From a virus, in IMG/VR virus record IMGVR_UViG_3300025585_000172, positions 1 through 23,307 of that record: a DNA stretch of 23,307 bases; one strand, written 5' to 3'. A model generated the notes under the pieces. That model ran no database searches. It had not been told where the DNA came from and saw only the letters and a list, made by a program, of their open reading frames with translations. Positions within the stretch are counted from its first letter, which is position 1. Every line of letters begins with the position of its first letter. Made by a program: the position numbers and the translations under genes. Of this stretch, positions 534-23,307 are shown in pieces.

Positions 534-824
534 TCACTCGTCGTCGGAGTCGCGGTTTGCGATCTTCTTGGCTGCCCCGCCTGCGGCGAGTCCGGTGAGC
601 GCACCGCCGATCGAGAACGACAGCGGGCTGAGAACGTCCATGAACGCGAGATCGAGCGGGGCTGCTTCTTCAGGCTGGTAGACGAAGATGAGGGAGTACA
701 GCATCCCGAGGACGGTGAGTCCGAGAACGCCTGCGAGAGTGAGAATCAAGATAGCCCGGATGCGGGCTTCGATCTCACTTGGGGAGAGTCGTTGACGACG
801 GCGCGGGCTGTTTACGGGGGTCAT
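534..824 (-). CDS. Holin candidate, two membrane segments
   Basis: The 96-residue frame begins at ATG 824, preceded by AGGA six bases upstream (ACAGGAACCCCAATG). An in-frame TTG further upstream (857) lacks such a site. The N-terminus is basic (PRRRQR, residues 7-12), then two hydrophobic segments follow at about residues 24-48 (ILILTLAGVLGLTVLGMLYS) and 66-84 (a Gly/Ala-rich segment), with a charged end (KKIANRDSDDE). This matches the general shape of class II holins, which oligomerise in the inner membrane to release or activate the endolysin. Its first 50 bases overlap, in another frame, the lipoprotein gene that precedes it. It shares the cassette with a second two-segment protein, so which one is the holin and which an antiholin cannot be decided from sequence. 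Confidence 0.8.
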   Translation of the reverse strand: MTPVNSPRRRQRLSPSEIEARIRAILILTLAGVLGLTVLGMLYSLIFVYQPEEAAPLDLAFMDVLSPLSFSIGGALTGLAAGGAAKKIANRDSDDE

Positions 825-918
825 TGGGGTTCCTGTAATGGTCGGTGCAAGCTGCAAGCAGGCAGGCGGCCGCGACAGCGACGACGAGTCCTACTTGTAT
901 CCGCAGATGGTTTGCCAC
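775..918 (-). CDS. Out-of-frame overlapping small lipoprotein (spanin-like or exclusion lipoprotein)
   Basis: A 47-codon minus-strand frame starts at GTG (916-918) and ends at TGA (775-777). The translation has a short basic head (MANHLRIQ), a hydrophobic core (VGLVVAVAAACL) and a lipobox LAAC ending at Cys24, which would be lipidated after signal peptidase II cleavage. The mature part is only 24 residues and polar, with Pro-rich stretches (NPNDPRKQPAPSS). The 3' 50 bases overlap the next gene in a different frame. This size, overlap and lipobox recall Rz1-type outer-membrane spanins, but in a monoderm host the same protein would sit on the outer face of the membrane, as superinfection-exclusion lipoproteins do. 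No good ribosome-binding site precedes the GTG; the transcript may be leaderless (see the site at 926-931). It is too short for usual gene callers. Confidence 0.6.
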   Translation of the reverse strand: MANHLRIQVGLVVAVAAACLLAACTDHYRNPNDPRKQPAPSSTTLPK

Positions 919-2947: not shown

Positions 2948-3937
2948 TTAGTTGTAGACGAGTGTTAGGCGACCTGAATTTGCGTCGCTAAACGGCGAAT
3001 CAAACACACGGTATGTTGAACCGCTACCACAACTTGTTGACGCAGTTCCGTCAACAGTTCCGTTGGAATAGCCCGGATACATGAACATTCCGAAATTTGA
3101 ATACACGGCGATGCGACCCAACGTCGCTGAAGTCAATGTGAACTCTCGCGCATTTCCTTGTGTTTGCGATGTGCCGGTCGTGTAATAAGTCGTGTCGTTG
3201 GCTGGTGCGCCAGACGGTTGAGACGCATAGTCGTGTGTTCCGAAAGCGACAACTGCGCTAGAGCATCCGTCTGCGCTACTACGGTAGGTACGAATAGTCC
3301 CGCTGTCCGGGGCATAACCCTTTGCAACAGCAGCAACACTTGTGCCGTAGAACCAATGCCCATATTGGTAGCCGTAAGTGCTGCTAATCCATCCCGAGAA
3401 GATGCTTCCTATGTTGCCCAAGTCGGAACGCCATCCACCTGTTGAACCGTATGTGCCATGACTGGTAGCCGTCACATAGAACGTGCCGAGCGGTTTCGCA
3501 TATGCAGAAGAAGCAGCTGAGGTGGTGGTGTTGTTCGCAGCGTCGGTGGCGACAGTACGGAAATAATGAATGTTTCCTCGATTGCCACTTGACACCGAAT
3601 ACGAATGGCTGCCACCCGAAGTAGAAATGCTTGTAACAGTCGACCAACTTGAATTGTTGGAAGAATATTGAAGATCATACGATGACACACCCGAACCAGC
3701 GTCGCTTGTAGACGCATAGTTGACTGTGAAACCGGGAAGGCTTTGATTCCAAGAAATTGATGTGATGCCGCCACCGGTCGGCCCGGTGTTGTCGTATTGA
3801 TATACCTGCTGCCAGCCGGAACCATTGTGCGCGTAAATGTTGGTGACACCCTGAAACGAACCGCCAGCATGAACATACGGGCGATCCGTACCAGTCAACT
3901 CCTGCCAACCAGAACCGTCGTGAACGTAAGTAGGCAT
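2948..3937 (-). CDS. Fibronectin-type appendage or adhesin protein
   Basis: The 329-residue product starts at an ATG that shares one base with the upstream stop (TGATG). Its N-terminus holds two related short units, VHDGSGWQEL and AHNGSGWQQV (about residues 5-14 and 35-44), a motif common in phage tail proteins. A fibronectin type III-like domain spans about 55-148 (GITSISWNQSLPGFTVNYAS, then VSSYDLQYSSNNSSWSTV and HYFRTVATDAANN). The remaining 180 residues are Gly/Ser/Tyr-rich and probably beta-structured, with no motif I recognise; this end may bind the host surface. It follows the decapeptide-repeat fibre and precedes the endolysin, so it is probably the last virion gene. The product is inferred to be an external tail component. 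Confidence 0.8.
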   Translation of the reverse strand: MPTYVHDGSGWQELTGTDRPYVHAGGSFQGVTNIYAHNGSGWQQVYQYDNTGPTGGGITSISWNQSLPGFTVNYASTSDAGSGVSSYDLQYSSNNSSWSTVTSISTSGGSHSYSVSSGNRGNIHYFRTVATDAANNTTTSAASSAYAKPLGTFYVTATSHGTYGSTGGWRSDLGNIGSIFSGWISSTYGYQYGHWFYGTSVAAVAKGYAPDSGTIRTYRSSADGCSSAVVAFGTHDYASQPSGAPANDTTYYTTGTSQTQGNAREFTLTSATLGRIAVYSNFGMFMYPGYSNGTVDGTASTSCGSGSTYRVFDSPFSDANSGRLTLVYN

Positions 3938-4956
3938 CAGTATTTGAACCAGATGTCCCCAGCAGAACCACCAGTCGGGGAGGAAGTCGAGATAGTCACA
4001 ACCGGGTTCGTGGAACCGGCGTTGGTGTACACGCCAGCCAACTTGGTGTAGGAGATAGCGGCCGACGCGTTCACGTCAGCGTTCACGATCGTGCCATCCG
4101 CAATCTTGGCTGACGTGACAGCCGAATCCGCAATCTTGGCGGTCGTCACATTCGCATCCAAAATCTTGGCGGTCGTCACAGCATCCGACGCGAGCTTGCC
4201 AGCAGTCACCGCCGTATCAGCGATCTTGCCGGTCGTCACGTTCAGATCGGTGATCTTTGCAGTAGTTACCGCGCTATCAGCCAGTTTCGCCGTCGTCACA
4301 TTGGCATCAAGAATCTTGGCGGTGGTCACCGAATCGGAAGCCAGTTTGCCGGCCGTAACGTTTGCATCCAAAATCTTGACAGTAGTGACAGCATCGGAAG
4401 CCAGTTCAGACGCGCCAACAGCACCAGCAGCGATCTCCGAAGAACCCACCGCATCAGCAGCGATCTTTGCAGAAGTAACAGCATCATCAGCAATACCGGC
4501 CGTCGCAACCTGACCCCACGCCAAACCAGTCGAAGCCGACGAGTCAGCCTTCAAAACATACGCGTTCGTACCGACAGCCAGACGAGCAAACGTCGAGGTG
4601 TCATGCGTCAGGATGTCACCCTTTGAGGTCATCGTGGCCGCCAACTCGTTCGCCTCATCAGCGTCAACAGCGGTGAAAACCGGGTAGACAACGGAACCAG
4701 CAGCGTGTTGAGCGGCGGTCGTATCATCTGCCCCGCGGGTCGTGACGTTCACCGTCGTGTCGGTAGCACCGGAACGGGTAACCAAAATCTTTTCTTCGTT
4801 CGCTGTACCCGGCTCAATCACCACATAAAACGGGTTGCTGCCATACGGCCAGCCGGTGTATGCGGCGATCACAAAGTTCGTCCCGTTGGACGCGAGCGTG
4901 CCGGTAATCGTGGTGGACGCTGCTCCACCCTTGTAGCTTCTGCGTGTCTTTGCCAT
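3937..4956 (-). CDS. Decapeptide-repeat tail fibre
   Basis: A 339-residue protein whose ATG directly follows the stop of the nozzle candidate (TAAATG). Residues about 12-95 form a beta domain with a TTVNVTTRGADDTTAAQHAA stretch similar to that of the connector candidate. Residues 160-289 are thirteen tandem decapeptides of the form VTTAKIxDxx with no change of register. The C-terminal 40 residues end in TGGSAGDIWFKY, a common end of phage fibre proteins. The repeats suggest a trimeric shaft. The neighbours are the nozzle candidate upstream and the fibronectin-like protein downstream, so it probably attaches to the tail and presents the adhesin. The fibre call is strong; the receptor is unknown. 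Confidence 0.88.
   Translation of the reverse strand: MAKTRRSYKGGAASTTITGTLASNGTNFVIAAYTGWPYGSNPFYVVIEPGTANEEKILVTRSGATDTTVNVTTRGADDTTAAQHAAGSVVYPVFTAVDADEANELAATMTSKGDILTHDTSTFARLAVGTNAYVLKADSSASTGLAWGQVATAGIADDAVTSAKIAADAVGSSEIAAGAVGASELASDAVTTVKILDANVTAGKLASDSVTTAKILDANVTTAKLADSAVTTAKITDLNVTTGKIADTAVTAGKLASDAVTTAKILDANVTTAKIADSAVTSAKIADGTIVNADVNASAAISYTKLAGVYTNAGSTNPVVTISTSSPTGGSAGDIWFKY
4090..4479 (-). repeat. Tandem 30-bp coding repeats (13 decapeptides)
   Basis: Thirteen contiguous units of 30 bases encode VTTAKILDAN-like decapeptides. Identical protein units (VTTAKILDAN) appear three times, while their DNA differs at synonymous positions, so the array is old and under protein-level selection and not freshly amplified. 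The register is perfect through the array. Confidence 0.9.
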
Positions 4957-7851: not shown

Positions 7852-8961
7852 TCAGTTTTGGATGACGGCCTGAGCGTCCAGCAGGTTCTCCAATGTTGAT
7901 AGCGGAACCCAGCTTGTTTCCCCTGCCGTCAAACGAATCCGATAGCGGCCGATGTCAGCGACAAGCGTTTTCGTGGCTTTTACGGGGATCATCTGACTGC
8001 CGGTTTCCACCCATGTTTGTTGAGTGATACGGTCGGTCGGCGGGTGAACTTCCAATAGCCGATCAACGGCATTATCCCACGAAAACGGCAACGTATCCTC
8101 AAATCGGAGTTGTCGCTCCCATAAAGCCGGTCTACCCCGCTTGTAGGCGTGGCGCATCGAGTCCACCAGTTCATCATGATCCGGCACAAACCAGTTCCCA
8201 ACCTCAGGAAAGTTGGACATAAACGCTTTCTCTTTGCGGGCAGATAACGGGAAATCAAGTAGACGGGAAAACATGAGGTGACCGTGAGCGGCTGTGCCGA
8301 TCACCAGATTCCCTAACGCACATTGTTGGAGGGGCATCATCCCGAACCCTTCGCCCCTCGATGCCGACACAAAACAGTCGGCTGTAGCGTGCAGATCACG
8401 TTCTGCGATCGGATCAAGCGCATCCTTGATGACGGTAATCCGATCCTCAAAATCGTAGATTTGTGGGTCGTCAAACGTGTATGGCGGGATTTTGATGACC
8501 AGTTCGGAGTCCGGCAGGTTCGCATCTTTGAACGCTTGAATGACCTGCGGGATACCTTTACGCAACCACCCTGAACCGCCAGTCATAAAACGGAATCGAT
8601 CGTTGTCGGGGACGTTCTGTGGAAACCAGACATCATGGTTGACACCCAGAGGGACAACGTGAACGTCGTCGTGGATAGTGTCGAACAGTTCTTTGTTCCA
8701 GTCGCATGGGACGATCACCCGGTCAAACAGTCGGCTGAACCGTTCAAAACGTGCGGGTAGACGGTCGGTTTCCCACATTGTCATAACCGCTGTGGACTGG
8801 CCTTCCCACCAGCCTTTCACCATGTCCGGCAACATCCCGAACACAACAGTTCCAGCGTCGTCGGACAGTTCTCCACGGCCGGCAAGGTGGCGGGCGAACT
8901 CGTCCACCATCCGTCCGTAGCCGACATGAGGGATGTTCACCCCTTTGATGTCGTAGATCAT
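7852..8961 (-). CDS. GT-B glycosyltransferase (family 4-like) with C-terminal extension
   Basis: The 369-residue protein starts at an ATG overlapping the upstream stop (ATGA). It shows the GT4/GT-B layout: an N-terminal half with GYGRMVDEFARHL, a sugar-nucleotide half beginning at FMTGGSGWLRKGIPQVIQAF (about 125-143) and SASRGEGFGMMPLQQCALG (199-217). The last is the family's EX7E site, but the second Glu is Gln212 (Glu204 kept). Such enzymes transfer a sugar from a nucleotide donor. An extra 50 residues at the end (about 318-369, VKATKTLVADIGRYRIRLTA) look like a small beta domain found in phage structural proteins. The gene sits among virion genes, several with Ser/Thr-rich products, so virion glycosylation is a fair inference; cell-surface modification is the alternative. 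Confidence 0.85.
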   Translation of the reverse strand: MIYDIKGVNIPHVGYGRMVDEFARHLAGRGELSDDAGTVVFGMLPDMVKGWWEGQSTAVMTMWETDRLPARFERFSRLFDRVIVPCDWNKELFDTIHDDVHVVPLGVNHDVWFPQNVPDNDRFRFMTGGSGWLRKGIPQVIQAFKDANLPDSELVIKIPPYTFDDPQIYDFEDRITVIKDALDPIAERDLHATADCFVSASRGEGFGMMPLQQCALGNLVIGTAAHGHLMFSRLLDFPLSARKEKAFMSNFPEVGNWFVPDHDELVDSMRHAYKRGRPALWERQLRFEDTLPFSWDNAVDRLLEVHPPTDRITQQTWVETGSQMIPVKATKTLVADIGRYRIRLTAGETSWVPLSTLENLLDAQAVIQN

Positions 8962-9231: not shown

Positions 9232-9522
9232 TCACGTAATATACGCCCCGTAACCGGCTGATGTCAGTTGCGCGGCTTCTTCATCGGTGATCTGGTTGTC
9301 GTGACCACCGTAATAAGTAGTTACTACAGTTGCCATGTCGGATGGTTCCGACTCGACATACGATCCGTCTGTCAACTTGTAGACGTTGCGTCCTTTGGGG
9401 AGGGCCGCATAGTGGCGTAGAAGACGGTAGGAGAACCGTTCGCGTTCACCCCACGGGATTGTTTCATCGAAGTCGGACAGGTTGTAGAAGTTGTCTGACG
9501 GGCATCTGAATATGGGCATCAT
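9232..9522 (-). CDS. Small structural-type protein, copy of the preceding gene's C-terminal domain
   Basis: I start this at ATG 9522 (ATGATG, overlapping the upstream TGA); the longer open frame upstream is a shadow of the previous gene. The 96-residue protein reads IFRCPSDNFYNLSDFDE, then RGRNVYKLTDGSYVE-like residues (45-58), YYGGHDNQITDEEAAQLTSA and a GYGAYIT end. The same order occurs at the C-terminus of the preceding protein (RNIFRLTNGTY, YLGAHEHFVTEQEKADLVAA, GYTVT), so the two share a domain. Small proteins with an RNVxxLTDGxY...GGHxxxVTxxEAxxLxxAGY pattern are familiar from actinophage structural clusters. The function is unknown. Confidence 0.8.
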   Translation of the reverse strand: MMPIFRCPSDNFYNLSDFDETIPWGERERFSYRLLRHYAALPKGRNVYKLTDGSYVESEPSDMATVVTTYYGGHDNQITDEEAAQLTSAGYGAYIT

Positions 9523-10334
9523 GTCACCGTGTATCCGGCCGCTACAAGGTCGGCTTTCTCTTGTTCTGTTACGAAGTGTTCGTGCGCTCCAAGATACACC
9601 TTGTCTACGAGCGACGGATCGAGCGGGTCTACGTTGGTGTATGTGCCGTTGGTTAGCCGGAAGATGTTGCGGGCGCGGTAGCCGGGGTTGGCGCGGGCGA
9701 ATAGACGGTGCGATGGTGTGGATTCTCGATAGTCCGACCACGGGAATCTGTCTTCGATGGGCGGCCGGAAAATCAAAGATTTCGTCCAGTTGGCTGTTTG
9801 TGTGCCGGCCCCAGATGTTGAGGCGGTTCGTATAAAGAGGATGCCACTAAGCGACGATGATGTGCCTGTACCACTAGATGTTGCGGTTCGAGGGGCGATA
9901 TGACGGCCGGTGGCACTATCGCTTGCGGTTGCGCCACCTGAGCCGTAGCCGGTGCGTAGACGGCCGACTGTGATGGCGGTGAGGGATGTCCCCGTACCGG
10001 AAGCAGATGCGGTACGGGGAACAATGTGCAGTCCGGTCGAGTCAAAGCTGCTTGTGCCTGATCCGGTTGCTGTGCGAACTGGGACGCGGATGCGAGTTGC
10101 GGTTTCTGTTCCTGTACCAGACCCGGTGGCGGTACGTACAGGATTGATGTTCGAGTCGGCGGTTTCACTACCAGCACCAGACCCTGTAGCGGATCGTGCT
10201 TTGATTCGAACAGACGACGCGGTTTCTGTACCAGCACCCGACCCAGTAGCAGTAGCGGTAAAGGTTGCTACGCCGTCATAGGTGAGGTTTGACGCATTGT
10301 AGGTGTAGTTAGCGTCGTTGTATAGGTGAGGCAT
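9519..10334 (-). CDS. Ser/Thr/Gly repeat protein with C-terminal structural domain
   Basis: The 271-residue product starts at ATG immediately after the upstream TAA; the GGAGG four bases upstream is the end of that upstream gene. Residues 1-28 are a short beta-like head (YNDANYTYNASNLTYDGVA). Residues 29-183 are about eight units of 20 residues of the type ATGSGAGTETA...RT. Residues about 184-271 form the domain repeated in the next gene. Such repeats probably make an extended, flexible or beta-solenoid surface protein. The many Ser and Thr residues make it a possible substrate for the nearby glycosyltransferase; that is inference. A minor virion or decoration role is likely. Confidence 0.78.
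   Translation of the reverse strand: MPHLYNDANYTYNASNLTYDGVATFTATATGSGAGTETASSVRIKARSATGSGAGSETADSNINPVRTATGSGTGTETATRIRVPVRTATGSGTSSFDSTGLHIVPRTASASGTGTSLTAITVGRLRTGYGSGGATASDSATGRHIAPRTATSSGTGTSSSLSGILFIRTASTSGAGTQTANWTKSLIFRPPIEDRFPWSDYRESTPSHRLFARANPGYRARNIFRLTNGTYTNVDPLDPSLVDKVYLGAHEHFVTEQEKADLVAAGYTVT
9786..10250 (-). repeat. Tandem ~60-bp coding repeats (20-residue units)
   Basis: Seven units of 20 residues (one of 22) and a partial eighth encode ATGSG(A/T)GTETA followed by a variable part and a closing (V/I)xxRT. The sixth unit has two extra residues, GY, before GSGGATA. The first three units are closest to one another, suggesting recent duplication at that end. Confidence 0.85.
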
Positions 10335-12334: not shown

Positions 12335-13291
12335 TCAGGCGAGCGAGCTGGACGACTCGATGCGACGGAGAGCCGCCTCGCGGAATCGGCCGTAGCCACC
12401 CAACCAGTACCAACCGACCGGCTGGAAACGGTTGAGGGTATCGGTGATCGGGCCGCGAACGACCTTCGGAACCGCACCGTTGCCGTCCTGCTGGCTGTAC
12501 GCCTTCGCGATGGCCTGACGACCCATGATGTGCGTGCAGTACACCTCGATCGTGCCGGTCGAACCGGAACCGTCCGAAGCGTTCTCGAACACCTTCGCTC
12601 GCGGAGTCTCGATGAAACGCACTCCTTCGAACGCGCCGATCTCACCGTTGTAGATCATGCTGGTGTCGACGTACACGTGCGGGTCACGCCACGCGGCCGC
12701 GCCAGTCTCACGACGGAAGTCGTAAGCCACGTCCGGGTGGATGTAACCCATGTACAGGCCGTTGAACGTCGGAACGTTCGCGCCACGCAACTGGGCGGTC
12801 ACCTTGCGGATGTCGTTGGCCTCGATGATGTCTTCGGCGGCGACGGTGGTGCGGCTCGACGGGGTGGACGATCCACCGCCACCGTAAACCACGTTCGTGC
12901 CACCAGCGATCACATCGCGGACGATGCTGTCGATCGAGATGCCAGCGTTGTAGCCGACGACGTTCGCGGCCACCGTGTCCACGTCGAGGAACGAGGTTCC
13001 GCGAAGCTTGGCGGTGGTGAGGACGGCGTTACCGTACTCGGCGAGGGTGACGCTGACCTGCGAGTCGGACATGGCCACGGCGGTCACATCGGACGTTTCG
13101 GTCAAAGCGGAGGTGGCGGCCGAAAGATCGTTGAAGATCGTGAAGGTCACCGACGTACCGGGCATCGCCTGATTCGTGGGCTGGACTTCGACGGCTGCGT
13201 CGAACAGCAGTTCGGAACGGAGGGCGAAGTACGCCAACCGGTCAAATGCTGCCTGATCGACTGAAAGGGCTGCGGTATCTGTGTATGCCAT
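12335..13291 (-). CDS. Major capsid protein, N4-gp56 family
   Basis: The 318-residue product has a strong ribosome-binding site (GAAGGAGTGAACCCTCATG). The region 159-235 (NDIRKVTAQLRGANVPTFNG, YIHPDVAYDFRRETGAAAW, NGEIGAFEGVRFIETP) matches the N4-gp56-type major capsid family, which has the HK97 fold and forms the head shell. The N-terminal part (AYTDTAALSVDQAAFDRLAY) and the FTIFNDLSAATSALTETSDV strand region are typical of these proteins. The gene follows a coiled-coil scaffold gene by 48 bases and is followed by a strong terminator, as expected for the most abundant virion protein. Length is within the usual range. This is one of the firmest calls in the window. Confidence 0.93.
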   Translation of the reverse strand: MAYTDTAALSVDQAAFDRLAYFALRSELLFDAAVEVQPTNQAMPGTSVTFTIFNDLSAATSALTETSDVTAVAMSDSQVSVTLAEYGNAVLTTAKLRGTSFLDVDTVAANVVGYNAGISIDSIVRDVIAGGTNVVYGGGGSSTPSSRTTVAAEDIIEANDIRKVTAQLRGANVPTFNGLYMGYIHPDVAYDFRRETGAAAWRDPHVYVDTSMIYNGEIGAFEGVRFIETPRAKVFENASDGSGSTGTIEVYCTHIMGRQAIAKAYSQQDGNGAVPKVVRGPITDTLNRFQPVGWYWLGGYGRFREAALRRIESSSSLA

Positions 13292-16511: not shown

Positions 16512-19500
16512 TCAGTCCTCGTCCTTCACATCAACTTCTTGCAACAACAAACGTTCCCAAATTCGACCGAAATCAGGATACACCGTTGCCAGACGCTCAC
16601 CTTCTGCACGGAGAATGTCACGCAAATCTGCGTTTGCGCCAGCAGCCAAAGTTTTGCCGCGTTGATCCGCAACTTCTAAAGCAGCATCGCGAGCAGTCAA
16701 ATACTCGCGGGTCGCTATCGCAACCTGATTATCGTCCATACGAGCATCAAACGCGGCCTCATACAACACGTTCATTTTGGCATCAAAAGCCCGTACGTCA
16801 ATAGGAGCCTTAGCAAAACCGGGGTATTGATCGTAAAGTTTTTCTCGTTCACGACGCAAAATTGCTCTTTGCTCATCGTTGGGTTTCGGGCCGGCCGCAC
16901 GGATCATACGACGATAAATTGAGGTTCCCATCAACCGTTGAGATTCCTCAATCATTTCTTGTGGACTCAAAGGTTTACGAACATCGTTTTCGATTTGACG
17001 GAGGTAAACCTGATAATCAAACTTTGACCCGACAGGAGAAAAGAAACCGGCAACTTCGTCGTATGTTTTGAAAAACGATTGGTTGTTACGTTCCCATTTA
17101 CCGAATTCTGTTGAGGCATCAAGACCTGAAACAGTCGATTTTGTTTTGCCTGCCAGATACAACATGAAGTCATCTTTGAACGTGTCGGTAAATATCTCAA
17201 CTGCGGTGTCATAGTTTTCGTCTTGTAACTGACGGAAATACTTTGACATTTCAACAGCATGAATGTCTGTCTTTGACAAATCAATTTTTTCGTTGCCGAC
17301 CGTAATCGTCTGTTTCTTTGCTTCTTCACCTAACGGAACAACAAGACGCGGAACGGGTCGAGTCGGCCCAACAAACTGTCCCAAAACGCGAAGGAAAAGA
17401 AGTGCGCGTGCTTTTTCAACCGAATCGTTTTGCAGTTTTTGCATATCTGCTTCAGTTGAAAGATCGTAGTCACCGGATGCGGCAAGAACTTCCATGACTT
17501 GCATTGTCATGTCGCCGTACAAACGATCGTTTTCTGGGTCTTGAAACGCTGACCATAATTTTTGCCACCATGCAGGGTTCGGAAGAATTCCGATTTGAGG
17601 TGATCCGTATGGAGTAAGAATTTTTGAAGCCCAATCAAATTGAGGTTTATCTTTCAAAAAGAAACCTGCCGCGGCCTGAACATATGGGCCAACACCCGGA
17701 AGAATGTTGAATCCCATGTTCAAAGTCTTTGCAGGAGCAACCATGTCAACTTGAGGAATGTCTAAAGCTTTCTGCAAACCTGTTCCTGCACCGTAACCAA
17801 GACCAGCACCACCAATCAAACCGGGCAAACCAAAACCAATCGCCCCAATCCCAGCAGTACCAAAAGCCGCCATGAGCGGAACTGTCTGTGATCCAAAAGG
17901 ATAGTTGAAAACGTATTCGCCGGTTACAGGGTCGGTGTAAAAGAAACCTCGACCATCGTTATTGAGGTCTGCTTGACGCAACCCTTCAATCGCAACATAT
18001 CCACGTTTGAACGCTTCTGGGTTGGTAGTCAACGTTTTGCCCCAGTTTTTCATCACTTCAGCCCATGCAGAACCGAACGGAGTGATGATCTGCAAAATGT
18101 CACCAAAGTTGGATCGTTCAGCAGCGTTATAGAAAAGTTCTTTAGTGGTGTCTAGGGCTGCGCCTTTGGCATAAGCATCAATTTCTTCGAACGTGAGTTT
18201 CCCGTTTGAAGCCAACGTTCCTTCTGCTTTGTCCCACAGTTTCTTGGCTGCTTCATCGTTGCCGACATATCGGAAAAAGAACTTCTTATTGAATGTTTCT
18301 CCGGCCTCTTTAGCTGCGGCTTGAATGTTTGCTTTGATAATTGCTGCTTCGCCGGGCGCAAGTTCATCGGCAAGATTGTCAATCACCTTGTAATATTCTT
18401 GTCTGAATACTGGTGAACGATTCAAGAAACTTTCGCGCTTCGGGTAAAGTTCAGCGAAGAATTTGTCAACAAGTCGATCGTACATTTTGATGACGGGGAT
18501 TCCACGACTACTTGATCGAAGCACATCAATGGTGTCTTGTGCTTTATAGGTTTCTCTCAGCACAACATTCGGGTTATTTACGACATTGTTGATTTCTTTT
18601 AGGAAATTATCTTCGTAACCAATGATTTGGCCGGTGCGTGAAAACTGAAGACCACCAACAATTTTCCCGGTTGCATCCGTGTATTTCCCTGATGCAACAA
18701 TTTCACGCAACAAATCATTTTTGCCGGTGCTTAGATCAATGCGTCGTTGAACAGTCTCGATATAACCGCGAAGATTTGTTTCATTCAATGCGCCCTGAGC
18801 ATCTTTGAAAACAACGGTTCCAATGGTTTTTTGACCGGATGAATCAGGAATAATCTTGTTCTTCCACATATTCTGAAGACGGTCAACGTGTCTGCGGCCC
18901 TCAGGAGTGGATTTCATCCAATCAATGATTTCATCAACGGTTTGACCAGAAGCAAGTCGTCGAGCAACATCATCTGTGTGCAGCAACGCCATTTCGGCGG
19001 CAATCGCTTTTGAATAGTCTTGGATGCCGTCGCCTCGACGGACGCGTCGCCATGCACCAGTAAGTCTTTCCCGTGCATGACGGTTCACGTCACCAATGTT
19101 TTCGCGGACTGAAGCAGAAACAGCTTCGGCCATTTCCTGTTGTCCTAGACGAATCAAATCTTCTGGATCGCCCTTGAATGTTGTACCCCAAATGTCGCCC
19201 TTGAACTTTTTGTGGAACGCAACTTGGATCAATTCGAGAGGATGGAATACTCCGGTCTGGATTCCGGGAGCAAATGATTGACGGAACAACGAGTCAGACA
19301 TATTGCGGTAGACGTAACCGCCAGTCATCAATGTTACGGGTTTCCACAAATAGCCTTGAATCCAATCAAGAACAACAAGAGGTGTTCTCAAATTTCCAAG
19401 TTTTGTTGCGTCACGCAAGCCTTTACCAGTTGTCAAAAATTTGCCGGGATTGATGAAACCTTGTTTTGTCGTAATTTTTTGAATTGGTGACCATTTTGCG

Positions 19501-21218
19501 GCGATTCGACGGACGCGTCGAGGATCAGGAAGCATGACCGAATGTTTCATTGTTTCGGACATCAAATGTGCTGTCATCAACGGATGACCAGAAGTCACAA
19601 TATTTCCTGCATCATCAATCCATGTGAATGTTCCACCCAAATCGCCGGCCGCACCTGCATTATCCAAGAAGCCGTACAAATCTTTCTGATACACCTCTCG
19701 CATATCTGAAAGACCATTATGCAAAATGTCGTTCAGCTCGTCGCTGACTCCCAACTTTCGCATAGCGGCGCGACTCGCCTGCTCAATCTCAATGACAACA
19801 TTACGGATTGAACCATCACCTAAAACAAAAGCATCCGTCAACTTGTTGACAAGATCAATACGTTGCGCTTTCGGCAAACGAGCCTGAATCAAATAGTTAT
19901 TGACATTCTTGATTGATGACGCAACAGCACGATCAGAGCCACCCTCGATCACAACATGACGACCCGGAACGGCAGCCAACAAACGTGCCACTTTAGATTC
20001 TTTTTGAGAACCGAAATACGGGATGTTTCGTTTTACATCATCCCATCGACTGATGTTTACTTGATCGATTCGTTTCGGGCCGATACCACGCGTAATGTCA
20101 CCCAAACCTAAAGTGTCTTCAATGAACAAACGTGCAGTTGTTGAGTCTTTGACATCAACCACACCTCTCCAAAATTTTGCGTCAGCAGTTGGAAACAAAC
20201 TGATCGCTTCATCAATGTTTTTGACTTTTGCAATTCGGTCAATTACTCCACGTCCGGCACGTGTATCAAGAAAGTTGGCGACTTTGCTAGGATTGATGTA
20301 CGCAGAATTGACATCAGTCAATCCGGCAAGTGTGCGTAAGCCTGCTTTAGTTCCTGCGGTTGTAAGGGCCGCATGACTAATCAAGCTACTGCCCGGAAGT
20401 GCTGGTGTTTTGATAGCGACACCGGCATCAATAAGACCCGAAAGAATGTTGTACTCGCGCGAACCCGGTTGCGCGATTACAGTTGCTAGACCTCTACCAA
20501 TCGTCAACGCATGACCATCGATAGTGCCTCGAAGTTTGCGTTGTTGTTCACCTGTTATTTCGTAAATTCGAGCATTTGGGAACCATCCTTCGCCTTGCAG
20601 ATCAGGGTTCTGCACCATTTCACCCAACAGAGTCGCATCCCAAAGGGCATCACCTAAGTTGAATGATCCGGGCGTATAAGCAGATTCACCACCAAAAACA
20701 GTTTCAAGTGAATACTGGTATTGATTGCTTGTTGGAGTTGGCGGGGTAATCGTTGTACCGGGAATTGTTCCAGTTTGACCGCCTTCTTTGACTTGACCGG
20801 AAATATTGTAGATCGCACCAATTACCGGCGTAGCAAGGTTTGTTGCTACGTCTCCAGTCCAAGTGACACCAGCACCAGCCCAACGAACACCAGTTTTTGC
20901 TTTATCAACAACGTTGCGTTCCCACCAACTTTTCTTCTTTGGTGGTTTGACTTCACGAATCCCACGGAAAACTTCTTTAGAAACAACCTGCATCAAAAAA
21001 TCTTTTGATTGCTTCTCATCCATCACACCAGATGTATATGCGCGAGCTGCCGCAATCACAGCACCCGGAGAACTGGCGGGAGCAACCTTGTAAAAATCTG
21101 TTACAGCCTGCGCTAAATCAAAACCGACTGTTCCTTTCAAATTTTGGTAGCGTTGATCGGCCTGTTCCAGTTCGTCGTCAAGACTGTCTTCTTCTTCAGG
21201 ACTCAAAGGAAACGGCAT
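16512..21218 (-). CDS. Giant 1568-residue virion protein, probable internal/ejection protein
   Basis: A single uninterrupted frame of 1568 codons, about 20% of the window. ATG 21218 overlaps the upstream stop (TGATG). The protein begins acidic (PLSPEEEDSLDDELEQADQR). A Trp-rich part near 105-140 reads WWERNVVDKAKTGVRWAGAG followed by TNLATPVIGAIYNISG. The middle is mixed and helical with WIQGYLWKPVTLMTGGYVYR (about 625). A later part has FGDILQIITPFGSAWAEVMK (about 1055), then a Gly-rich hydrophobic stretch near 1105-1150 (MAAFGTAGIGAIGFGLPGLI), which could insert into a membrane. No lysozyme, protease or polymerase motif is visible. Its size, place after the portal and hydrophobic patches fit the large internal core proteins of short-tailed phages that cross the envelope with the DNA. 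GC is visibly lower than in the capsid and portal genes. Confidence 0.7.
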   Translation of the reverse strand: MPFPLSPEEEDSLDDELEQADQRYQNLKGTVGFDLAQAVTDFYKVAPASSPGAVIAAARAYTSGVMDEKQSKDFLMQVVSKEVFRGIREVKPPKKKSWWERNVVDKAKTGVRWAGAGVTWTGDVATNLATPVIGAIYNISGQVKEGGQTGTIPGTTITPPTPTSNQYQYSLETVFGGESAYTPGSFNLGDALWDATLLGEMVQNPDLQGEGWFPNARIYEITGEQQRKLRGTIDGHALTIGRGLATVIAQPGSREYNILSGLIDAGVAIKTPALPGSSLISHAALTTAGTKAGLRTLAGLTDVNSAYINPSKVANFLDTRAGRGVIDRIAKVKNIDEAISLFPTADAKFWRGVVDVKDSTTARLFIEDTLGLGDITRGIGPKRIDQVNISRWDDVKRNIPYFGSQKESKVARLLAAVPGRHVVIEGGSDRAVASSIKNVNNYLIQARLPKAQRIDLVNKLTDAFVLGDGSIRNVVIEIEQASRAAMRKLGVSDELNDILHNGLSDMREVYQKDLYGFLDNAGAAGDLGGTFTWIDDAGNIVTSGHPLMTAHLMSETMKHSVMLPDPRRVRRIAAKWSPIQKITTKQGFINPGKFLTTGKGLRDATKLGNLRTPLVVLDWIQGYLWKPVTLMTGGYVYRNMSDSLFRQSFAPGIQTGVFHPLELIQVAFHKKFKGDIWGTTFKGDPEDLIRLGQQEMAEAVSASVRENIGDVNRHARERLTGAWRRVRRGDGIQDYSKAIAAEMALLHTDDVARRLASGQTVDEIIDWMKSTPEGRRHVDRLQNMWKNKIIPDSSGQKTIGTVVFKDAQGALNETNLRGYIETVQRRIDLSTGKNDLLREIVASGKYTDATGKIVGGLQFSRTGQIIGYEDNFLKEINNVVNNPNVVLRETYKAQDTIDVLRSSSRGIPVIKMYDRLVDKFFAELYPKRESFLNRSPVFRQEYYKVIDNLADELAPGEAAIIKANIQAAAKEAGETFNKKFFFRYVGNDEAAKKLWDKAEGTLASNGKLTFEEIDAYAKGAALDTTKELFYNAAERSNFGDILQIITPFGSAWAEVMKNWGKTLTTNPEAFKRGYVAIEGLRQADLNNDGRGFFYTDPVTGEYVFNYPFGSQTVPLMAAFGTAGIGAIGFGLPGLIGGAGLGYGAGTGLQKALDIPQVDMVAPAKTLNMGFNILPGVGPYVQAAAGFFLKDKPQFDWASKILTPYGSPQIGILPNPAWWQKLWSAFQDPENDRLYGDMTMQVMEVLAASGDYDLSTEADMQKLQNDSVEKARALLFLRVLGQFVGPTRPVPRLVVPLGEEAKKQTITVGNEKIDLSKTDIHAVEMSKYFRQLQDENYDTAVEIFTDTFKDDFMLYLAGKTKSTVSGLDASTEFGKWERNNQSFFKTYDEVAGFFSPVGSKFDYQVYLRQIENDVRKPLSPQEMIEESQRLMGTSIYRRMIRAAGPKPNDEQRAILRREREKLYDQYPGFAKAPIDVRAFDAKMNVLYEAAFDARMDDNQVAIATREYLTARDAALEVADQRGKTLAAGANADLRDILRAEGERLATVYPDFGRIWERLLLQEVDVKDED

Positions 21219-21607
21219 CAGAACCCACTATTTCCGTAGCGACTCAACATCTCCAACAAATCATCATTCGGGAACATCGCATACAACGCACGCAACGTTT
21301 CCAACACATCATCCTGCGGGACACGTCGAGGCATAATGCCCATCTCCGCAGCAGACGGGCCAGCACCAAAATCGGCTCCAGCGGTCACCGGCTCATTCGG
21401 ACGTTCAGTCGGTCGCAACAAATCGCCGCCAGCACCCGGAACCGGACGAGCAGCCCGCTGCGCCTGCACATCAGCAGGCGACGAACCGGGCGACACCTGC
21501 TGTTGAGAACGAGCCTGCGCCGCACCCTCACCATACGTCTGCCCCGTAAAAGCCATCTTACGAGTCGCAGGATTACGAAGATCAGAACGATTCGGATAAT
21601 CGGCCAT
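21218..21607 (-). CDS. Small Gly/Ala/Pro-rich protein between portal and giant gene
   Basis: The 129-residue protein has its ATG in the portal's stop (TGATG) and its stop in the next ATG. The first 90 residues are Ala/Gln/Pro/Gly-rich and probably disordered (AQARSQQQVSPGSSPADVQA). The last 30 form a helix with DDVLETLRALYAMFPNDDLL, ending MLSRYGNSGF. I do not recognise a family. By position it could be a head-completion or portal-linked protein, or a cargo linker. The coupling suggests fixed stoichiometry with its neighbours. Confidence 0.75.
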   Translation of the reverse strand: MADYPNRSDLRNPATRKMAFTGQTYGEGAAQARSQQQVSPGSSPADVQAQRAARPVPGAGGDLLRPTERPNEPVTAGADFGAGPSAAEMGIMPRRVPQDDVLETLRALYAMFPNDDLLEMLSRYGNSGF

Positions 21608-23307
21608 CAGCCACCACCAAGTTGAGCGAGCAACCCTTCAATACCAGCCGGAGGCGCAGACGCAACAGGCTGTTCCGCACCCATACCCGGCATCGCCAAA
21701 CCGGGCTGCGCTTCAGGAGACATCGCAGCAGTTTCCTGCGCCTGACGTTCCTTCGCAGCCCGATCAACCTCAGACACCGCGTCATACAAACTCTTGGAAT
21801 CCACAAGAACCTTTCGGACAAGCAACGCAAGATCAGCAGGCTGATACGGGCCAGCAGGATTCGCGGCCTGCTGCTGAATCGAAGACAACAAAGCGGCTTC
21901 CACACCCTCCGCGATAATCCGATCATGTTCCATATCAGGATCAGCGATCAGAGGATCAGCCTCACGTGCCGACTCCTTCGACATCAAACCAGTACCGACA
22001 CGCTGACCCAAACCGATAATCAGATTGTTCACGTCCGAACCAGCGGCCGAATACGACACGTAATGGAAATCGGTTTCCCAAACCTTGTTCGGCGTGTAAT
22101 CCACCTTGCCGGCCGTCGCTCGACCCGGCATAAAAAACGACTTCGGAGTGTTACCCCAATACGCTTTCTCGATAGCGATAGCAACCTTATCCTCAGCCAA
22201 CAACGACTGAGCGAACGCTTCCTGTGCTTCCTGCACACGAAAATCGATCGTCGCGGACAGCACGTTCTCACCGCGACGGCCGGTACGAATGTTCGTGCCA
22301 GATTCACCACCGAACTCGGCGGGAATAGCACCCTCCAAACGTTCCTGACGTTCCAAACGATCCAACGCCTGCTCAGTCTTATAGCCCGGATTGACCTGCT
22401 GAATCTGAAGGTCGCCGCCCTTCAACACACCCAAAATGCCGGCCTTACCGTCCGCGAGCTGGACGATCTCCGGGTTCTCACCGGGGCGAGCCACCAAATA
22501 TTCGTCAGGGAAAATGCCTCGCTCAATAGCGATTTCGGTCAACGCTTGCAGTCTTGCACGCGTGTAATACATCCCCAACAGACCGTCAAACTGGCCGTGC
22601 GGCTTATCGAGAGTCGTACGGTTGGCGACGATAGCGAGCGGGACACCGGCACGGTTGACGATTCGTTCCAACTCCACAGAGTCCAAACCGGCGTTCTCAT
22701 GCGGAGTGAAATTGGGGTTTTCATCTGCACCCAACACACCCATGACGATCTCGTATTCGTCCACATACTCGATCAAAGTGAACATGGTGTCAGGATCAAC
22801 ACGACCCATACGCAAACGGCCGGCCACAAGCGGGCCATAGTTGTGCATCAGCCACGAATAAGGCTTCCGATACGTGAAAATGCAGTCGTACGGAACCGGG
22901 TTATCAAGGTCTTCCGAAGGACACGGGTAGGTGTCCAGCGGGTTACGGACGTGCCAACGGGGAACAAGCGTCTTGAAATCAGGTTTCAACACGACAGCCG
23001 ACGACGAATAAGCAAGCAGATGGCGTGCGCGACGACGCAACACCATCTTCATCCGGTTCTCATCCCACATCGCCAACATCGCCTTCTTACGAGTGTTAGC
23101 CAAATCCTTTGATCGTTCCGAACCTTCACGGAACGCCGGGAAATACGGGGACGGCATCGTGGAAGCGACACGCATCGACATCTGATCCAACCCTTGAACC
23201 AGCAGGTTGGCAACCGAAGAACGGGCGTTGCGATCCAACTCGTTCAACGGGACAATGATGTCACCGTTGGCGAGTTCACGTACAGCCTGCATCTGCTGAT
23301 GCACCGA
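21607..23307 (-). CDS. Portal protein, N-terminus beyond right edge
   Basis: The frame is open to the window end, so the 5' part is missing; an internal GTG at 23304 is only the first start-like codon in view. At least 566 codons are visible. Features fitting a phage portal are the helical N-terminal region (LDRNARSSVANLLVQGLDQM), HVRNPLDTYPCPSEDLDNPV (about 120-140), a central part with VPLAIVANRTTLDKPHGQFDG (split: VPLAIVANRT and HGQFDGLLGMYYTRARLQAL), GGESGTNIRTGRRGENVLSA (about 330-350) and the crown-type end with MSKESAREADPLIADPDMEH followed by an Ala/Gln/Pro-rich tail. The portal ring is the DNA gate of the head. It is the first gene in view of the head module, with scaffold and capsid further downstream. 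The terminase is expected upstream, outside the window. Confidence 0.8.
   Translation of the reverse strand, partial: SVHQQMQAVRELANGDIIVPLNELDRNARSSVANLLVQGLDQMSMRVASTMPSPYFPAFREGSERSKDLANTRKKAMLAMWDENRMKMVLRRRARHLLAYSSSAVVLKPDFKTLVPRWHVRNPLDTYPCPSEDLDNPVPYDCIFTYRKPYSWLMHNYGPLVAGRLRMGRVDPDTMFTLIEYVDEYEIVMGVLGADENPNFTPHENAGLDSVELERIVNRAGVPLAIVANRTTLDKPHGQFDGLLGMYYTRARLQALTEIAIERGIFPDEYLVARPGENPEIVQLADGKAGILGVLKGGDLQIQQVNPGYKTEQALDRLERQERLEGAIPAEFGGESGTNIRTGRRGENVLSATIDFRVQEAQEAFAQSLLAEDKVAIAIEKAYWGNTPKSFFMPGRATAGKVDYTPNKVWETDFHYVSYSAAGSDVNNLIIGLGQRVGTGLMSKESAREADPLIADPDMEHDRIIAEGVEAALLSSIQQQAANPAGPYQPADLALLVRKVLVDSKSLYDAVSEVDRAAKERQAQETAAMSPEAQPGLAMPGMGAEQPVASAPPAGIEGLLAQLGGG

Follow-up and report, generated by a model that had tools for sequence, protein, structure and literature searches.

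A lipoprotein gene of 47 codons lies hidden in the late region of a phage and overlaps, in a different frame, the gene of a two-helix membrane protein. The gene is real and under selection at the protein level, and its pairing with the two-helix gene is obligate and near-absolute, the lipoprotein being inseparable from its partner. In the reading that we favour, tentatively and with a little less than even confidence, the product is a lipid-anchored extracytoplasmic partner of the two-helix, holin-like protein in a lysis module of actinobacterial phages. The window, that is the whole stretch of DNA analysed, is a 23.3-kb IMG/VR virus record of 23,307 nucleotides. Its late region runs, on the minus strand, from the portal gene through the capsid and endolysin genes to a series of small membrane-protein genes (Table 1).

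Table 1. Coordinates of the features of the window, in the reading direction of the late region
Feature	Position	Strand	Remarks
Portal	21607-23304	minus	Start of the late region as read
Capsid protein	12335-13291	minus	Between portal and endolysin
Endolysin	2204-2938	minus	C-terminal PG_binding_1; catalytic domain weakly M15-like in relatives
Secreted Thr/Ser/Pro-rich protein	1102-2247	minus	Syntenic module member in the clade of the window
TM52	947-1105	minus	Small membrane protein of 52 aa, upstream of the lipoprotein; phrog_29041-like (E 0.039)
Lipoprotein gene	775-918	minus	47 codons, GTG start at 918; product MANHLRIQVGLVVAVAAACLLAACTDHYRNPNDPRKQPAPSSTTLPK
Lipobox L21-A-A-C24	847-858	minus	Cys24 is the predicted lipidated residue
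Conserved mature motif CTDHYRNPNDPRK	811-849	minus	Family form C[ST]DxYR[ND]PxDDPRN
AGGA	831-834	minus	Likely ribosome-binding site of the two-helix gene; inside the YRNP codons
Overlap of lipoprotein and two-helix genes	775-824	minus	50 bases, different frames
Two-helix membrane protein	534-824	minus	96 aa; N-in/C-in suggested; holin-like; PHROG 25359
TM64	336-530	minus	Membrane protein of 64 aa; one N-terminal helix, probably N-out/C-in; holin-like topology

The frame, its LAAC lipobox with Cys24 and the overlap with the next gene had been described in an earlier note on this sequence and are present exactly as given there, the partner starting with an ATG at 824-822. The "basic head" that the note ascribed to the protein is weak, with one Arg and one His. 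The mature tail of the window-type form, here called lip1, has approximately 24 residues, and Pro makes up around 17% of mature tails. Directly upstream of the lipoprotein start, at 919-945 on the minus strand, lies a GGTACACTTATACC-like sequence that is similar in close relatives and could be a promoter or operator.

Several lines of evidence identify the frame as a selected gene. Using the 47 amino acids in tblastn against loci that had been retrieved with the neighbouring protein or the endolysin, we found it at the same location in dozens of IMG/VR contigs, with identities from 98% down to about 45%. Six residues, C24, D26, R29, P31, D34 and P35 (numbered by the first row of alignment A1), are invariant among 18 diverse members. 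For the mature codons outside the overlap, pN/pS was 0.24, 0.23 and 0.04 in three clades, whereas the two wrong frames gave 0.92-1.74; these are pairwise counts and are not phylogenetically independent. Random substitution simulated at the observed divergence kept both lipobox and motif in at most 0.025% of the runs, a figure that applies to relatives differing by 30-42 changes within 90 nt. A chance frame is excluded by the relatives at the same site, the pN/pS values and the simulation, which also bear out the earlier note in its proposal of a hidden, overlapping gene for a lipoprotein. The refuting case named there, a lipobox lost while the holin-like gene is retained, did not occur among close relatives. 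Suppression of synonymous change in the overlap, which had been expected as well, was found in the clade of the window, where pS is 0.074 inside the overlap against 0.23-0.26 outside it, but is not clear in the other two clades (0.34 and 0.36).

The partner's AGGA and ATG fall within the most conserved codons of the lipoprotein, those of YRNPND, so conservation driven by the RNA is conceivable: the frame would then be a by-product, held open by the overlap and the ribosome-binding site of the partner, and would encode no functional protein. This reading is almost certainly wrong and is already contradicted by the data. It does not agree with the low pN/pS outside the overlap and the high values in the wrong frames. 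The conserved Arg is encoded by AGG, AGA or CGA among the relatives and is preserved although CGA disrupts the AGGA. Within the overlap, a Pro-Arg of the lipoprotein is retained although its codons vary, and it is the N-terminus of the partner that changes (MTPV.., MTPG.., MTQE..); at this site the lipoprotein frame is therefore under the tighter constraint. Moreover, in the wider-family form, lip2, the overlap with the partner is 4-29 nt, usually 17 nt, and lies at the far end of the gene; the motif DGxYRYPCQDPxNW is still present, beyond the reach of that overlap, and is therefore not merely the ribosome-binding site of the partner. The choice of Arg codons and the overlap layout of lip2 together exclude conservation of the motif as a side effect of the partner's start site.

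An alignment scan with lip1 recovered 54 loci, and a scan of IMG/VR with lip2, whose motif is CGYDGxYRYPCQDPxNW..., gave at least 582 matching stretches. After removal of duplicates the relatives occupy 135 distinct junctions, 134 of which have a strict or relaxed lipobox; among the 56 lip1 junctions the strict form occurs in 42 and relaxed forms in the remainder. The lip2 proteins have four additional conserved cysteines, and profile comparison of lip1 with lip2 gave an E value of 5e-4 and a probability of 32%. A common origin of the two forms is likely, because they occupy the same position upstream of homologous partners. Neither lip1 nor lip2 has a confident family match in Pfam or PHROG. 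Searches of known phage genomes with the lipoprotein of the window or with its partner gave no match, and the records of DSL-LC01 and of the Manatee Spring phage were reached solely through lip2. In the Manatee Spring homologue (L140, 2828-3016 of MW202675.1), a transmembrane helix replaces the lipid-anchor Cys, which indicates that the common property is anchoring on the outer face of the membrane. Structure prediction for the lip2 domain was poor (pLDDT 71, pTM 0.28), and a PDB sequence search found nothing.

The pairing was counted from both genes. The two-helix gene lies directly downstream in 133 of the 135 junctions, and the contig ends in the remaining two; two of the underlying scans had the lipoprotein as their sole query. 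Starting from the partner, lip1 or lip2 is found upstream of 210 of 226 two-helix genes; the other 16 comprise two truncated cases, 12 with a different small lipoprotein-like ORF in the slot and two without any. L058 and L059, which belong to a more distant lineage with a two-helix protein 61-62% identical, have TM52, the two-helix protein and TM64 with no lipoprotein between (L058, 2606-3249). Different ORFs, some with non-canonical lipoboxes, sit directly upstream of the two-helix gene in four lineages (L020/L027/L028/L030, L134/L135, L122/L132/L136 and L100/L102/L109), which suggests repeated replacement or extreme divergence. Retention of frame and lipobox, on which the earlier note had staked its claim, thus holds in close relatives and gives way in the lineages just named, and perfect conservation in all relatives was rejected on the same cases, one lineage being without the gene and four having a replacement.

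All 13 diverse two-helix proteins that were scanned match PHROG 25359 (best E 9e-32), their sole confident match; PHROGs labels this family "function unknown", and the link to a lipoprotein, which its entry does not contain, is an addition made here. AlphaFold2 models the window copy as a hairpin of two helices (H15-48/H56-94) joined by a short loop, at a pLDDT of 77, and the distribution of charges suggests that both termini are inside. In the short loop outside the membrane, QP and D are among the invariant positions. Matches of the two-helix proteins to holin families are weak; as a small membrane protein in a lysis context, the partner agrees with the holin-like neighbour of the earlier note and may be regarded as a candidate holin.

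Apart from the two-helix gene, the junctions have no universal neighbour. TM52, TM64 and the Thr/Ser-rich protein occur at 30-35 of 48-54 lip1 junctions (approximately 60%) and, with the models used, at 0 of 73-79 lip2 junctions; the TM52 relative in L039 has an E value of 9e-12. In the secreted protein of the window, an N-terminal globular domain is followed by a long linker rich in Thr, Ser and Pro and by a conserved C-terminal stretch with basic residues at its end; searches of Pfam, PHROG and PDB gave no match to this protein. In one lip2 clade a divergent TM52 relative adjoins a secreted PA14-domain protein, which looks unrelated and occupies the place of the Thr/Ser-rich protein. An endolysin is encoded within approximately 3 kb, upstream or downstream, at about 107 of the 135 junctions, so that the lipoprotein is encoded there, as a holin partner or antiholin would be, together with holin-like and endolysin genes. 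The architectures are many, and the endolysins include the window type, VanY (E 2e-14) and CHAP (E 1e-10), as well as a GH19 type in the Manatee Spring phage. Since some loci had been fetched with the endolysin as query, the lipoprotein-fetched loci were also counted alone, and a window-type endolysin lies within 2.5 kb in 7 of 23 lip1 and 22 of 32 lip2 cases. The exception is a clade of large phages (about 13 junctions), in which the membrane module is intact and the endolysin lies roughly 7-9 kb off, so that the module may serve another role. Some cassettes encode a second holin-like protein, either TM64 or, in cassettes of the L126 type, a protein of 65 aa, and this could be the real holin.

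WhiB is a marker for actinobacteria and their phages, and it exceeded the cut-off in 22 of the 29 long records of relatives and in 8 of 33 mostly short records, DSL-LC01 among them; the short L126-type lip2 contigs have none. The authors of DSL-LC01 assigned it to Actinomycetia (PMC10611076). Hosts of the window's kind are accordingly actinobacterial, as the earlier note had proposed from the neighbouring genes, and the window itself is taken to come from a virus of freshwater actinobacteria, its host being deduced from its relatives. A LysB-like or cutinase gene was found in none of 31 records, whereas mycobacteriophage D29, the positive control, was detected, so nothing points to a mycomembrane. 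Among 31 records, none had a tyrosine integrase that passed the cut-off, and a serine recombinase was found in a single case, DSL-LC01, among 28 records, the scope of both searches being restricted by fragments. The pair has no relatives in the bacterial and archaeal genomes searched, which therefore provide no prophage-based link to a host.

The preferred reading can be set out as follows. The small lipoprotein would be exported and, given its predicted lipidation, anchored to the outer side of the host's cytoplasmic membrane, and would form with the overlapping two-helix protein a two-gene unit of the lysis module. The motif CxDxYRxPxxDPxN that follows the anchor probably binds the external loop of the partner (QP...D), and such binding would regulate or enable its oligomerisation and triggering. 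The lipoprotein would thus be an antiholin or a holin co-factor acting from outside the membrane. Its role in lysis is suggested by gene context, and the pairing with a two-helix, holin-like protein points to a part in holin triggering, as a control or as a support; lysis timing could be affected in either direction, antiholin or co-factor, which sequence alone does not settle. The stronger proposal, that extracytoplasmic lipoproteins gate two-helix holins through CxDxYRxPxxDPxN as an unnamed and widespread form of lysis control in actinobacterial phages, is possible but rather doubtful.

By analogy, the gene may act somewhat like known lysis accessories. In phage T4 the antiholin RI, which has a signal-anchor-release helix, acts on the holin T, which has one helix and a large periplasmic domain; no relation in sequence is known, and the likeness lies in the proposed logic, in which a small membrane-anchored extracytoplasmic protein controls a holin from outside. 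In topology, a parallel is the pair LysF1a/LysF1b of F1 mycobacteriophages, a two-helix N-in/C-in protein of about 90 aa and a one-helix N-out/C-in protein reported to act jointly in lysis (PMC13056207), which resembles the two-helix protein beside the one-helix TM64 in the window. Unlike these cassettes, the window has an added lipoprotein, of which the passages of PMC13056207 dealing with them report none.

The genetic arrangement also recalls the Rz/Rz1 spanins (lambda, T5 and Jersey families), in which a small lipoprotein gene overlaps or adjoins a membrane-protein gene in the lysis cassette and the arrangement persists through sequence turnover of the lipoprotein. An Rz1-type o-spanin was rejected: the lipobox is there, but the partner architecture and the host are different. 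An i-spanin has one N-terminal helix and a long periplasmic coiled coil, and the partner here is a short-loop hairpin, with the lipoprotein gene placed first; the hosts, judged by the WhiB and LysB-like counts, are actinobacterial and give no hint of an outer membrane, and the spanin families in PHROG gave chance-level matches only (E 0.014-0.39). A looser version would have the lipoprotein, the two-helix protein and the Thr/Ser/Pro-rich neighbour disrupt an outer envelope of surface glycans or S-layer at the end of lysis. The overlapping gene pair, the Pro content of the mature tails and the secreted Thr/Ser/Pro-rich or, in one clade, PA14-domain proteins adjoining it in part of the family are in its favour, and a spanin-like factor of corynephages, LysZ, has been reported (cited in PMC13056207). 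We consider it unlikely, since the records give no sign of a mycomembrane, the lip1 tail is short, as is the external loop of the partner, and the secreted neighbour is missing from most lip2 loci. The envelope disruption suggested in the earlier note is further weakened by the transmembrane anchor of the Manatee Spring homologue.

That note had also offered superinfection exclusion. In such a reading, a lipoprotein made late would, with its membrane partner, stop the injection of DNA by a second phage. T4 Imm, a small two-helix membrane protein, counts for this reading. So does Ltp of phage TP-J34, reported to be a lipoprotein that sits outside the membrane of its Gram-positive host and stops DNA from being injected (PMC3952083). 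However, Ltp has 142 aa and belongs to the lysogeny module of temperate phages, where it is expressed from the prophage, and the passages of PMC3952083 that describe it report no obligate membrane partner. The gene studied here lies in the late, lysis region, is tied to a single membrane partner, shows no sequence match to Ltp, and occurs in records in which the integrase and recombinase searches gave the single hit described above. With no Pfam or PHROG family match, an Ltp-type lipoprotein was rejected; no exclusion family scored above chance, the Cor match being weak (E 0.006), and exclusion as a whole is unlikely. Finally, the pair could be a structural holin, with both proteins forming the hole together and the lipoprotein serving as a subunit that regulates nothing, as its near-absolute pairing with one partner and the variation of the other lysis proteins around it might indicate. 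This is improbable, because the lipoprotein is absent from L058/L059 and replaced in four lineages, and an accessory fits such a pattern better than a core subunit.

Because the lipoprotein has no match among the families of Pfam or PHROG, the arrangement is a new variant of the lysis module. The lipoprotein is conserved in more than 100 related viruses, always beside the two-helix protein where the contig continues and usually near endolysins. How phages of Gram-positive hosts control lysis is poorly understood, and a lipoprotein and two-helix pair near several unrelated endolysin types is a concrete candidate for such control. The result is moderately interesting because the antiholins of Gram-positive phages have been reported as not yet identified by experiment; if the gating proposal were true, the protein would be such an antiholin, and the first lipoprotein among them in the literature searched. 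For annotation, motif and partner define a searchable family, which is useful as gene callers may miss an overlapping gene of 40-50 codons, and the pairing gives a provisional handle on PHROG 25359.

Other late genes of the window, all on the minus strand, have features of their own. A protein of 1568 aa (16512-21218) has no Pfam match and lies in a region with a G+C content of 46%, below the rest. Among the tail genes is a glycosyltransferase-like protein (7852-8961; Glycos_transf_1, E 2e-5, slightly under the cut-off). Two tail or fibre-like proteins are rich in repeats, with ATGSGxGTETA and AVTTAKILDANVTAGKLASD as the repeated units (9519-10334 and 3937-4956).
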